Of a stretch of 34,538 nt of DNA, positions 21,590 through 25,596 are shown one piece after another; the stretch's first letter is position 1; the number at the start of each line of letters is the position of its first letter. A program made the position numbers and the translations under genes. This DNA is from an uncultured Chloroflexota bacterium (GTDB lineage: Bacteria > Chloroflexota > Anaerolineae > Anaerolineales > Villigracilaceae). The stretch covers positions 1 through 34,538 of the forward strand of contig CAIWRB010000058.1 in assembly GCA_903914955.1 (NCBI GenBank), read 5' to 3'. The notes below the pieces were generated by a model, which was given only the letters and a program-made list of their open reading frames with translations, did no database searches and was not told where the DNA came from.

Positions 21590-21618
21590 TGAAACTAAAA
21601 ATGATTAAGGTTTATACT
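21590..21618 (+). promoter_or_regulatory. Possible promoter of the two-component genes
   Basis: TGAAAC (21590-21595), a 17-nt spacer and TATACT (21613-21618) lie 30 nt before the response regulator ATG. A second TATATT at 21625-21630 is an alternative. The rest of the 235-nt divergent gap showed no other clear site. Confidence 0.4.
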
Positions 21619-21648
21619 CTATGGTATATTTTAACCAGGAGCACAGCC

Positions 21649-22326
21649 ATGAACGAGCGAATCCTAATTATCGAAGATGACCAGGCCATTCTCAAGTTAT
21701 TACAGCGAGGTTTGGTTTATGAAGGCTATACCGTAGATACCGCAATAGACGGCCGCATGGGTTTGATCGCCGCCCGCGACCACACTCCCGATCTGGTTGT
21801 TCTGGATTGGATGTTACCCGGCATGGATGGTCTGGAAGTATGCCATCGCCTACGAACCGGTGGATCGATCCCGATCATGATGTTGACCGCGAAGGACACC
21901 GTGCAAGACCGCATTCAAGGATTGGATGCCGGCGCAGATGATTACATGGTCAAGCCGTTCAATCTGGATGAATTGCTGGCGCGCGTGCGCGCCCTGCTGC
22001 GCCGTACACAACCAGAGCGAATCCCCATATTAAAATTTGCAGACCTGTCTCTGGATACAGGTTCACGTCAAGCCGCACGCGGAACTAGAATGGTGTCGCT
22101 GACAGCCAAGGAATATGAATTGCTCGAATTATTTCTCCGCCACCCGAAACAAGTGTTGACCCGCGAAGTGATCTTTGACCGCGTCTGGGGCTATGATTTC
22201 GGCGGCGAGAGCAACGTTCTCGAAGTCTACATTCGCTATCTGCGCCAAAAACTTGAGGGCGAAGGCGAGATCAGGCTGATCCATACCGTGCGTGGTGTTG
22301 GATATGTCATGCGGGAAAATCCGTAG
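21649..22326 (+). CDS. OmpR/PhoB-type response regulator
   Basis: A protein of 225 aa. ATG 21649 has AGGAG 8 nt upstream and begins directly with the receiver domain; an in-frame ATG at 21601 would add 16 unlikely residues. The receiver (1-118) has the acidic pair (EDD at 9-11), phospho-acceptor D53 ([11 protein letters not shown]), T80 and K102 (MVKPF). The winged-helix DNA-binding domain spans about 125-222 ([40 protein letters not shown]). It is paired with the histidine kinase 49 nt downstream. The signal is unknown; the divergent sigma operon may be a related stress circuit. Confidence 0.95.
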
Positions 22327-22375
22327 AAATGATGAAGGAAGATTCACAAATCTAAAATAAAAAAATGTAACTCGA

Positions 22376-23749
22376 ATGTCATTACGCCTGCGCTTTACTT
22401 TATTGTATTCAACTTTCATGGGCGGAATTCTGCTCATCTTCGGCGCGGCGGTGTATATTCTCGTCAATGTTATTTTACTCAACCAAGTCGATACCATGCT
22501 GGATGTCGTTTGGCGTGATATTGCTCAAGTGACCACAGTCGACTCGATGGGCGAGTTGAACTTGATCAGCCTGCCTCAGTTGGACATGACATCAAATGCT
22601 TTTGTGCAGGTATGGGGACAAAACGGAAAACTAATTGCGACATCTCCAAGTATTGCAGCGCTAACCAAATCCCTCGATCCTGCGGGATTGGAAGCTGGCC
22701 TGTCCATTTATAAAGATTCCTACCTCAACGGAGCGCACCTGCGGGTGTTGAGCGTTCCGTTGCAGGTAAACTTGCGGCCCATAGGCACACTGCAGGTTGG
22801 AGCAAGCCTAAGCGTAGTGGATGCTACTCGCGGAAACCTGCTTTCGATGATGACGATCATTGCGGTGATCGCAGTTTTATTAGCCGGACTTGGCTCCTGG
22901 ATAATCCTTGGTCGCGCCCTTTCGCCGCTTGAAGCCATAACCGAAACAGTAGATCAGATCAACCGAGCAGATGACCTCTCACGCAGAATCCCCTATCAAG
23001 AACGGGCAGAAAAAGATGACGAAATCGGCGATCTGATCGTCTCATTCAACCAAACGCTTGAGCGCTTGGAATCCCTCTTTACTTCACAACAACGTTTTCT
23101 GGCTGATGTGAGTCACGAACTGCGCACGCCGCTGACTGTTATCAAAGGCAATGTGGATCTCATTCGCCGCATGAAAATAGCTGACGAGGAATCCTTAAGC
23201 AGTATTGATCAAGAGGCGGGCCGTCTCACACGATTGGTAGGCGGCTTGCTAATGCTCGCTCAAGCTGAATCAGGCAAGTTGACACTTGTGCTCGCACCCG
23301 TTGAATTAGACCTTCTATTAACTGAAGTCTTCACCGAAATGCGCGTTCTCGCCGGCAGTAAAATCCATGTGCACTTAAATGATATTGATCAGGTCTTGGT
23401 CAACGGAGATCGCGACCGATTGAAACAAGTGATATTGAATTTGGCGTCCAATGCGATCCAATACACTCCGCAAAATGGAGATGTATATTTAAGCCTGGCA
23501 AAGATCGGCGACCAGGCGCGCATCATTATCCGGGACACAGGCCCGGGCATTCCTGCCGAAGATCTGCCCCACATCTTTGACCGTTTTTATCGAGCAGAGA
23601 AATCGCGTACCCGTTCAACCGCCAGCGGATTTGGCCTGGGTTTATCCATAGCACATTGGATCGTTGAACATCATAACGGGCAGATCAAAGTTGAATCAAA
23701 AGAGGGAAAAGGAACAACCTTCGTCATCTGGCTGGCGATAGTCAAGTAG
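22376..23749 (+). CDS. Membrane sensor histidine kinase
   Basis: A protein of 457 aa. TM1 is at about 13-36, an extracytoplasmic sensor region of ~115 residues at 37-153, and TM2 at 155-179. A HAMP domain follows (about 179-232). HisKA carries the phosphorylated H247 (FLADVSHELRTPL). HATPase_c has the N box NLASNAIQYTP (355-365), G1 DTGPGIP (387-393) and G2 GFGLGLS (418-424). It phosphorylates the response regulator encoded upstream. The sensor region has no recognised ligand motif. The start codon lacks a good ribosome site. Confidence 0.95.
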   Translation: MSLRLRFTLLYSTFMGGILLIFGAAVYILVNVILLNQVDTMLDVVWRDIAQVTTVDSMGELNLISLPQLDMTSNAFVQVWGQNGKLIATSPSIAALTKSLDPAGLEAGLSIYKDSYLNGAHLRVLSVPLQVNLRPIGTLQVGASLSVVDATRGNLLSMMTIIAVIAVLLAGLGSWIILGRALSPLEAITETVDQINRADDLSRRIPYQERAEKDDEIGDLIVSFNQTLERLESLFTSQQRFLADVSHELRTPLTVIKGNVDLIRRMKIADEESLSSIDQEAGRLTRLVGGLLMLAQAESGKLTLVLAPVELDLLLTEVFTEMRVLAGSKIHVHLNDIDQVLVNGDRDRLKQVILNLASNAIQYTPQNGDVYLSLAKIGDQARIIIRDTGPGIPAEDLPHIFDRFYRAEKSRTRSTASGFGLGLSIAHWIVEHHNGQIKVESKEGKGTTFVIWLAIVK

Positions 23750-23780
23750 AAAAGACTTCGTGCTTTTATGTTTATTGAAA

Positions 23781-24479
23781 CTACGGCAAACCCAGGCGTT
23801 GACTTGCCTGACGGCATAAACTTACCCCATAACTTTCATACCAATCATTCAAGGCTGTACTGGAATTACTTCCATTTTGTGCGTCTTTATAGATAGGCGC
23901 GCCATATTGAACATATCTCTTCGTTTGAGCAGACCAACTCCATTCTGAGCGGCCAATGATGCCGATGCCGCCGTTATAACCAGCCATTGCCAGCCGCGCA
24001 TTTCCTCCACCGGTTGCTAGTGATTTGGTAAGATAGGCAAGTCCGCGCTCGGCGTTAGTATCTGGATTGTATGGATCATCCACCGCGTAAAAATGAAAAG
24101 GCATTACCTGGAAGAGTCCCATGGCGCCGGCACTTGACCTGGCACGCGGATCCCCACAGGATTCGATCTGCATAATGGTCGCAACCAGATTTGGGTCAAG
24201 TTGCGAAGCGGCCGCCCATCTTAAGATAGAGTCAGCCCAATAGTGTATTTCAATTCTAAAGATGGGAGAAATACTTGTCGACGCGGCAGGCTGCACATCT
24301 GCAAAAGATGGGATTACGGATGGACTTATATTCCAGGCAAATGACCCAAGAATTGCGCTGATGAAAATTACCGCGAGCGGCACGACCGTAAAACCAGACA
24401 AACAGCCGCTCGCCTGTTCCTGCGAGGTCGCGGCTGGTTGCTGGTAATTTTTTATTCGGCGAGCGCGGGGCATTTCCAT
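23781..24479 (-). CDS. Lytic transglycosylase (SLT domain), membrane-anchored
   Basis: A protein of 232 aa. A cytosolic N-terminus is followed by one membrane helix (about 29-50, FTVVPLAVIFISAILGSFAW). The SLT domain occupies about 85-185: the catalytic Glu is in IMQIESCGDPRA, followed by AGAMGLFQVMPFH and the AGYNGG motif. Such enzymes cleave peptidoglycan between MurNAc and GlcNAc, forming 1,6-anhydro ends. It lies 41 nt downstream of the membrane-protein gene on the same strand, so both are probably driven by the promoter at 25378-25406 that contains an SOS-box-like palindrome. The start is not supported by a strong ribosome site. Confidence 0.9.
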   Translation of the reverse strand: MEMPRARRIKNYQQPAATSQEQASGCLSGFTVVPLAVIFISAILGSFAWNISPSVIPSFADVQPAASTSISPIFRIEIHYWADSILRWAAASQLDPNLVATIMQIESCGDPRARSSAGAMGLFQVMPFHFYAVDDPYNPDTNAERGLAYLTKSLATGGGNARLAMAGYNGGIGIIGRSEWSWSAQTKRYVQYGAPIYKDAQNGSNSSTALNDWYESYGVSLCRQASQRLGLP

Positions 24480-24520
24480 ACTCTCTATTTTGGGTCATTC
24501 GAACCCGGCTCGAAATGATC

Positions 24521-25348
24521 TCAGGCGTCGTAGTGACTGGTGCTTTCAGTAGCACGTGCGTTGTAAGCGACAGCGTGATAAGTTGGTTCAGACGAAACAA
24601 ATGAACTTTGCTGAGAAGTTGTGGCTGGCTTAGGCGCAGGCCGAAACCCCGCGTTACTGGCAGCGTTTACAGGACGATTGATCTGGGATGCCGGACGCAA
24701 GATGGGCTGGTTGACAGGCTGATTGACCGAGCTTTGACCTTGATATGTAGCTGTAGCTTGACGCGGCTGCGGATTATTATTGTACGAACGTAGTGCCTGG
24801 TTTTGAGTAGCAGCAGGCGCAGTGGTAAATAAACGGTCACCTGCGAGTGAGAAGGTTCCAATGATCAGAAGACGTATAAGCCAAACCATTGCGGCTATAA
24901 AGATCGGCACCACTTTGGTGAGAGTTGTGGCACTCATCACCGGGCTGCTTTGCAGATTAGCGTTATTTGAAATAGCAACTGCTACTCCCCACCAAGTGAG
25001 CGTGGCATTGAATCCGGCGGCCAACAGCCACGCGCCAAAGAGATAATATACTTCGGCGGGTTCGTCGCGGCCTTGTTCGGGAGTGAAGATGCGGGCGATG
25101 CCCGCGAAGTCTATTCCGCAAAAGGCGATCGCAAGAACTGTCGCCCAACGCATACCAGCGAAAGTCAGGTCACCGAGCATATCGTGCAAGGCAAACTGTG
25201 TTGTGCTAAAGTTGAAAATCTCGAAAGACAATAAGGCGCCAATGATCATCACTCCCCAGGCAGCGCCACGATTAAATTTTAGGTTGTGTGTTATTTTATA
25301 CCAGATCATTTTCAAACCATCGATCAGAGGATTACGTAAATTAGCCAT
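24521..25348 (-). CDS. Membrane protein with Gln/Asn/Pro-rich cytosolic or exported tail
   Basis: A protein of 275 aa. Residues 1-170 carry four or so hydrophobic segments (about 28-50, 63-82, 103-127 and 145-168: GAAWGVMIIGALLSFEIFNF, GMRWATVLAIAFCGIDFAGI, LFGAWLLAAGFNATLTWWGV, VVPIFIAAMVWLIRLLIIGT). Residues ~175-275 form a low-complexity tail rich in Gln, Asn, Ser, Pro and Ala. I do not recognise a family. AAGGAG lies 7 nt before ATG 25348. Its neighbour is a peptidoglycan-cleaving enzyme, and its promoter contains a LexA-like operator, which suggests a role in a DNA-damage or envelope response or in DNA transfer. This last point is inference. Confidence 0.75.
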   Translation of the reverse strand: MANLRNPLIDGLKMIWYKITHNLKFNRGAAWGVMIIGALLSFEIFNFSTTQFALHDMLGDLTFAGMRWATVLAIAFCGIDFAGIARIFTPEQGRDEPAEVYYLFGAWLLAAGFNATLTWWGVAVAISNNANLQSSPVMSATTLTKVVPIFIAAMVWLIRLLIIGTFSLAGDRLFTTAPAATQNQALRSYNNNPQPRQATATYQGQSSVNQPVNQPILRPASQINRPVNAASNAGFRPAPKPATTSQQSSFVSSEPTYHAVAYNARATESTSHYDA

Positions 25349-25374
25349 TTTGATCTCCTTGTTTATTGAGTTGC

Positions 25375-25406
25375 GACATTTTAGAACATGTGTTCTAAAA
25401 TGTCAA
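25375..25406 (-). promoter_or_regulatory. Promoter with embedded LexA/SOS-box-like palindrome
   Basis: On the minus strand the promoter is TTGACA (25406-25401), a 17-nt spacer and TAAAAT (25383-25378), 29 nt before ATG 25348. The spacer is part of a perfect inverted repeat: arms GACATTTTAGAACA (25375-25388) and TGTTCTAAAATGTC (25391-25404) around a 2-nt centre. The core GAACATGTGTTC fits the GAACnnnnGTTC pattern known for LexA boxes of Gram-positive bacteria and relatives. Placement between -35 and -10 is that of a repressor operator. Confidence 0.75.
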
Positions 25407-25596
25407 GGATTTTAGATAACCAAAATAATAAGTGGAATCAACGCTTCGTTATTTATTGACTCATCCTCCCATTCCCAATTACACTTACAAAAAATTATAC
25501 ACCGATGCCACCTCCCTCAAATACGACATGTAAACCATTATGCTTTCAGTTCTCGTATTTGGGGGAAGACCGGTGGATGCCGAAAATGGAGACCCA

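Follow-up and report, generated by a model that had tools for sequence, protein, structure and literature searches.

A two-gene unit in this Chloroflexota contig, encoding a 275-aa membrane protein (here called M) and an SLT lytic transglycosylase, is preceded by a promoter that is overlapped by a perfect 30-bp palindrome, which very probably serves as operator for LexA (SOS box), judging from its position and conservation. That LexA controls the M-SLT unit is predicted with high confidence, and the best explanation overall, which we consider likely, is a LexA operator inside the consensus-like promoter of a two-gene operon serving as SOS envelope effector. The box, the promoter layout, the co-conservation and the presence of the same core in front of lexA are all well supported. 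In the following, the window means the whole 34,538-nt stretch of DNA that was analysed; it is contig 58 of the 4.4-Mb, 470-contig assembly in which all scans of the own genome were performed.

Results and Discussion

The palindrome and its promoter

The arms of the inverted repeat at 25375–25388 and 25391–25404 are complementary at 14 of 14 positions around a 2-nt centre, as seen both in the sequence and by a repeat search. On the minus strand the repeat overlaps a TTGACA and a TAAAAT element and fills the whole 17-nt spacer between them, confirming the promoter and the 30-bp repeat that had been described in an earlier note on this DNA, and the two reading frames named there also have the coordinates given below.

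25375–25404, no strand: 30-bp palindromic operator, candidate SOS box (repeat; conserved upstream of orthologues; core also before lexA)
25401–25406, minus strand: -35 element TTGACA (read from the sequence)
25378–25383, minus strand: -10 element TAAAAT, 17-nt spacer (read from the sequence)
25355–25360, minus strand: probable ribosome-binding site AAGGAG (from reading the sequence)
24521–25348, minus strand: M, 275-aa membrane protein (list of open reading frames, AlphaFold2, hydropathy, alignment)
24492–24506, minus strand: possible small hairpin GGGUU...GACCC between M and SLT, before the SLT ribosome-binding region (alignment of relatives)
23781–24479, minus strand: SLT lytic transglycosylase, 232 aa (PF01464, E 1.6e-20)

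Between the palindrome and the start codon of M are 26 nt that include AAGGAG, and by a simple 4^-14 estimate 34.5 kb should contain arms of 14 bp around a fixed centre about 1e-4 times by chance. Its core at 25384–25395 reads GAACATGTGTTC and corresponds to the palindrome GAACnnnnGTTC of LexA/SOS boxes of the GAAC-N4-GTTC type, and like such boxes it overlaps the promoter-like site of the gene that it would control. The extended form AGAACNNNNGTTCT has one exact match in the window and eight further matches with two mismatches each, the total of nine being at chance level (mean of 12.6 in shuffled sequences).

Conservation of the box upstream of M relatives

We compiled 91 loci with M relatives (all matches minus three fragmentary ones), 89 of which have at least 120 nt of upstream DNA, and searched the 200 nt in front of each gene. 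A perfect box is present in 78 of the 89 loci and a box with at most one mismatch in 88, counts that are not independent of each other because the lineages are related. The reversed core, used as control in the same regions, gave 0 perfect matches and 3 within one mismatch among the 89, and none of 83 control regions 700–930 nt upstream of M had a perfect box, while nine had one with at most one mismatch. In 83 of the 89 loci TTGAC is located at most 13 nt 5' of a box with no more than one mismatch. Loci of the window type (A) have a perfect box in 28 of 31 cases and one with at most one mismatch in all 31, the loci of a second type (B) have a perfect box throughout (33/33), and outside the genus, in other families, the box is perfect in 17 and within one mismatch in 24 of 25 loci.

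A second set, consisting of the best 80 public genome loci and overlapping with the first, contains 73 loci with enough upstream DNA: here the box is perfect in 64 and within one mismatch in all 73 (reversed core: 0 and 7 of 73), the far regions gave three perfect boxes and one more among 67, and 22 of the 73 loci have more than one box within 130 nt when one mismatch is allowed. From 84 boxes the consensus in front of M is TTAGAACAnnTGTTCTA, and the commonest -10 hexamers at the 67 boxes with TTGAC are TATATT (33) and TAAAAT (15). Thus, the comparison of the regions upstream of the orthologues, which the earlier note had proposed, finds the box conserved.

The box in front of lexA, recA and other genes

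The LexA protein of the own genome passes the NCBIfam model TIGR00498 with 146 bits, the cut-off being 111, and the promoter of its gene (L022) carries the core in ttgacacaGAACAGGCGTTCgagtattat with the layout TTGACA-17-TATTAT. Exact GAACnnnnGTTC occurs in 27 of 29 lexA upstream regions, own genome included, and all 29 have it with at most one mismatch, compared to 0 perfect matches and 4 of 29 within one mismatch for the reversed core; L289 and L301, which have the one-mismatch form, are unconvincing in position or layout, and the exact core of L286 is without a clear -35 element. The recA promoter of the own genome shows ttgacgtccaGAACATCTGTGCtatact, which is one mismatch away from the core. 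Among 27 recA regions (30 loci, three of which were dropped for a missing locating motif) the core is never perfect and within one mismatch in 22, the reversed core giving 0 and 4 of 27, and GAACnnnnGTGC adjoining TTGAC is found in 20 of the 27. The palindrome that the earlier note expected in front of both genes of this genome is therefore present as core before lexA, whereas before recA the one-mismatch form was found and the perfect core was not. Together with a perfect core in front of uvrB in the own genome (uvrB identified by Pfam) and the boxes of the M orthologues, these sites support the SOS-box reading of the palindrome put forward in that note, as far as can be judged from sequence comparison. 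The outcome that the note gave as refuting this reading, a palindrome missing before recA/lexA and unconserved before orthologues, did not occur.

The core alone is not enriched in the genome as its 44 sites stay below the 94 of the reversed pattern, and its significance thus rests on position and conservation. We followed 11 other core sites of the own genome, mainly intergenic ones, and six of them have telling neighbours, namely lexA, uvrB, two cassettes headed by a LuxR-type regulator, an AAA/FtsK-like ATPase and a paralogue of M, whereas no SOS-like neighbour was recognised for the five sites in L002, L013, L019, L028 and L046. The extended box AGAACNNNNGTTCT occurs 6–10 times in each of five genomes of the same genus (42 in total vs 24 for the reversed control) and once in a sixth genome from another family (vs 3 for the control), with some of the sites in the searched genomes falling inside genes. 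The M promoters hold some of these few extended boxes, the genome-wide count of which is just modestly above the control.

Several other genes were found behind such boxes. In five of six genomes searched, AGAACnnnnGTTCT precedes the start of an AAA/FtsK-EccC-like ATPase of 261–266 aa by 3–25 nt (L012:711–1496 on the minus strand, and also L243, L249, L255 and L264); its FtsK/EccC matches are weak, an EF-Tu-like gene was seen by eye near it in some of the loci, and from its sequence it appears to be a third uncharacterised SOS-type target. The boxed cassettes in L034, L240 and L245 encode a LuxR-type regulator, a 171–176-aa protein, a small open reading frame and a DNA polymerase of family B, identified in L240 by NCBIfam (type B polymerase, E 1.7e-82) and in L034 and L245 by eye, with just the first genes of such a cassette being present in L010, and judged by their gene content they resemble a mutagenesis cassette. 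At L248:3012–3987 and L261:3054–4009 the SOS box is followed by a LuxR-type regulator gene, in L248 an open frame, and then by a small TIR-domain protein, identified by PADLOC matches in L261 and by eye in L248.

The membrane protein M

In the AlphaFold2 model M forms long helices at residues 27–58, 68–87, 99–128 and 140–174, mostly with pLDDT 70–90, and the tail after the fourth helix is rich in Pro, Gln and Asn and of low confidence (mean 66, pTM 0.50). Among 65 sequences the invariant residues include E43, N46, D80 and R159, and the motif EPTYH (E254–H258) near the end of the tail is nearly invariant. The charges of the two ends suggest that both are in the cytoplasm; the modelled inner loop 88–101 is net negative, contrary to the positive-inside rule.

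M of the window has no match in Pfam, NCBIfam, PHROG or PADLOC, a family profile found nothing among PDB sequences at E 1 and a PDB fold search with the model nothing at E 0.001. In the VIA rows its fold reached Z scores up to 6.4 (rmsd 5.5, 130 aligned residues), a level common for helical bundles. A Pfam scan of 37 relatives gave weak matches only, each to at most four members and the best with E 0.0016 to DUF4834, tblastn in PLSDB plasmids and INPHARED phages gave none at E 0.01, and no sequence relation of M to any known division inhibitor was found. The Foldseek search against viral proteins matched a DUF2637 protein of Gordonia phage Jace (E 8.5e-4), which is outranked in the same list by two unnamed phage proteins. 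Kinship to DUF2637 (PF10935) was examined and rejected, as the cut-off was reached in 0 of 21 genomes with the weak PF10935 matches not located at M, a profile comparison with nine DUF2637 proteins gave 0.4%, and a single-sequence comparison was also unsupportive. The evidence for a shared fold comes from one phage member by Foldseek, and four-helix bundles match widely.

The transglycosylase partner and the neighbourhood

The SLT protein has a single N-terminal membrane anchor at about residues 22–53 (hydropathy), it also matches the PHROG endolysin and phage transglycosylase families, and Glu106 in QIESCG, which we take to be the catalytic Glu, is invariant in 24 of 24 aligned SLT proteins. 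Its gene follows M on the same strand in all 30 same-genus A-type loci with room for it, whereas none of the 32 B-type loci has it there; the second, public set shows it in 74 of 76 loci, and the other families show it in 15 of 22 (16 of 23 when the same-genus locus L080 is counted in). The pairing of the 275-aa protein with an SLT enzyme pointed out before is thus a conserved one, and the short gap between both genes (median 84 nt in 72 loci) suggests cotranscription. A small extra reading frame lies in this gap in L160, L171 and L201, and six loci (L145, L150, L166, L180, L188 and L193) have a gap of more than 130 nt in which no plausible gene was seen. The hairpin listed above has a 5-bp consensus stem with changes on both sides at two of five pairs and a covariation term of about zero in 45 relatives (aligned without the window, 29 of 74 regions being omitted as near-duplicates or for a missing motif), and it is a possible control or processing element; Rfam gave no match for 23700–25500.

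Response regulator and histidine kinase genes at 21601–23749 converge on the M-SLT operon. Among 78 loci the converging histidine kinase is present in 66 and the response regulator gene in 61, and the box is not located in front of either of them. The recurrent neighbours within 6 kb are this two-component system and housekeeping-looking genes, mostly named by eye, and judged by them the operon does not sit in a prophage or prophage remnant.

Distribution, paralogues and viral relatives of M

M was found in 56 of 61 genomes (own genome included), in 36 of 37 of the same genus, and in 26 of 301 sampled genomes of the phylum, all of them from the class of the window genome. In a tree of 86 rows the A and B paralogues each have a clade of their own (A 100/100, B 100/98), and the two clades group to the exclusion of every other row (98/87). 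The B paralogue sits elsewhere in the genome and, as described above, always has the perfect box and never the SLT gene. Genomes with one SLT-paired and one SLT-less copy of M also occur in the families f8 (G056) and f12 (G047, G060). M therefore probably functions without an adjoining SLT gene, and the SLT-less copies usually retain the box.

Four predicted viral contigs encode M relatives and since two have the same sequence, three different ones remain:

L219:7923–8621: viral M relative
L220:5314–5814: viral M relative
L221:7959–8528: viral M relative

The M relative of L220 is separated by 21 nt from the Holin_LLH gene that precedes it and has a portal gene downstream; that of L219 lies upstream of a portal gene and of a terminase-like gene, the latter with a weak PHROG match. 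Neither a box nor an SLT gene adjoins any of the viral M relatives, and their place in the M tree is unsure because of long branches.

Proposed mechanism and alternative explanations

We propose that in the undamaged cell LexA would be bound to the near-perfect box that lies between the -35 and -10 elements and would silence the operon, and that DNA damage would release it through RecA-driven cleavage of LexA. LexA binding, induction and cotranscription, as well as the topology and the target of M, are what we infer here from the conserved features. A near-consensus box at this position would mean tight repression and late induction, which is typical of effector genes in other SOS regulons. 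The products would be the four-helix protein M with its long flexible tail and an SLT enzyme with a one-helix anchor and its catalytic domain outside. The most plausible role of M is that of a main effector which would target the division or wall-synthesis machinery and hold the cell during DNA repair, a role that fits the paralogues of M without SLT that have an SOS box of their own, and the transglycosylase would trim glycan strands at the same place. We give arrest of division or wall synthesis as the function of M-SLT slightly less than an even chance. Held more tentatively still is the idea of an undescribed SOS cell-fate module, in which a new membrane family and a dedicated anchored transglycosylase would choose between division arrest and wall opening after damage; this idea takes in a LexA box that is among the few near-consensus ones in the genome, boxed SLT-less duplicates, phage-borne relatives and an occurrence that is near-universal in the genus and widespread in the order.

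The main rival reading is that the same operon encodes an SOS-induced lysis pair, in which M would make or control a holin-like membrane lesion and the anchored SLT would act as lysin; damaged cells would then burst and set free DNA or vesicles. A membrane gene and a wall hydrolase under a single SOS box, the matches of SLT to PHROG endolysin and phage transglycosylase families, and the viral M copies, one placed directly behind a holin gene and upstream of a portal gene, another preceding terminase-like and portal genes, all fit this idea, the copy beside the holin gene in particular pointing rather to lysis. In Pseudomonas aeruginosa, Lys from the SOS-induced pyocin cluster is needed for explosive lysis (PMC4834629). 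We nevertheless consider a lysis pair unlikely, as M of the window has no holin profile match (one of 37 relatives reached E 0.063 to Phage_holin_3_1), the invariant charges E43, D80 and R159 lie inside modelled helices, which we judge unusual for a holin, and M is present in 36 of 37 same-genus genomes with extra SLT-less copies and neighbours that look chromosomal (mostly named by eye). The viral relatives, and the TIR-domain proteins encoded at other SOS-boxed loci of the genus, would also suit a phage-related conflict gene, in which M blocks a phage step or is an adopted phage takeover protein and is SOS-controlled as infection damages DNA, but neither M nor SLT has a PADLOC match, the SLT partner is constant and the distribution within the genus is not patchy, all of which makes this reading improbable.

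Slightly less probable again is a machine for DNA transfer or handling, in which M would resemble DUF2637/Spd-type proteins and work with the SOS-boxed FtsK/EccC-like ATPase while SLT opens the wall. DUF2637 has been linked to actinobacterial Spd-type membrane proteins, and the Foldseek match to the protein of phage Jace and the ATPase with its own box in five of six genomes agree with such a role, but the PF10935 and profile comparisons described above do not, M has no plasmid match, and the ATPase gene does not adjoin M. We regard it as very improbable that the palindrome belongs to another regulator of TetR or MarR type, or to the nearby response regulator, and happens to contain GAACnnnnGTTC. 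The perfect 30-bp symmetry in the window does exceed the LexA core and the two-component genes adjoin the operon in most loci, but the conserved symmetry stops at TAGAACAnnTGTTCTA with non-complementary letters at the next positions (T51/T54, A57/A69 of 84), and the same core takes the same promoter position before lexA (27/29) and before the B paralogue elsewhere in the genome.

Comparison with known systems

Known SOS regulons often hold an envelope effector that ties DNA damage to division or lysis, and these effectors are mostly unrelated to each other. M-SLT, which is widely conserved, has a fixed enzyme partner and offers a promoter ready to be assayed, would be a Chloroflexota candidate for such an effector, which suggests that these Chloroflexota rebuild, arrest or open their envelope upon DNA damage. 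The LexA regulon of this order would become directly testable, and with M an unannotated membrane family is now named for testing. Full-text searches of an open-access library listed no paper describing an M-SLT module or treating the order's LexA regulon, which does not imply absence elsewhere.

GAAC-N4-GTTC is given as the LexA motif of Bacillus and Mycobacterium in PMC3323433, where the Chloroflexi family Sphaerobacteraceae is named among the groups set for analysis. The window box shares with this Gram-positive box the core, the overlap with -35 and -10 and the occurrence before lexA, and differs from it by the extension to TTAGAACAnnTGTTCTA in front of M. To the DUF2637 (PF10935) proteins of actinophages and actinobacterial plasmids M may bear a resemblance in its four-helix fold, as indicated by the Foldseek match to one phage member, but it has neither a sequence nor a profile match to them.

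The Gram-positive SOS division inhibitors are described as envelope proteins, with wall-hydrolase activity reported for ChiZ, and the layout of YneA, ChiZ and SosA as a single membrane span with an extracellular C-terminus and usually a LysM domain (PMC6851548). Like YneA, ChiZ, SosA and DivS, M is an envelope protein, its SOS control being predicted here from the conserved box, but in contrast to YneA, ChiZ and SosA its model has four long helices followed by a long tail, with neither LysM nor any Pfam domain, and while ChiZ itself is reported to hydrolyse the wall, the hydrolase beside M is a separate SLT protein. The combination of a membrane protein with a wall-cutting enzyme under SOS control, again predicted in our case, recalls the pyocin Hol/Lys of Pseudomonas aeruginosa. 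In contrast to this pair, M-SLT does not lie in a prophage-like cluster and M is no recognised holin, and its enzyme is anchored in the membrane and encoded at a fixed place next to M.
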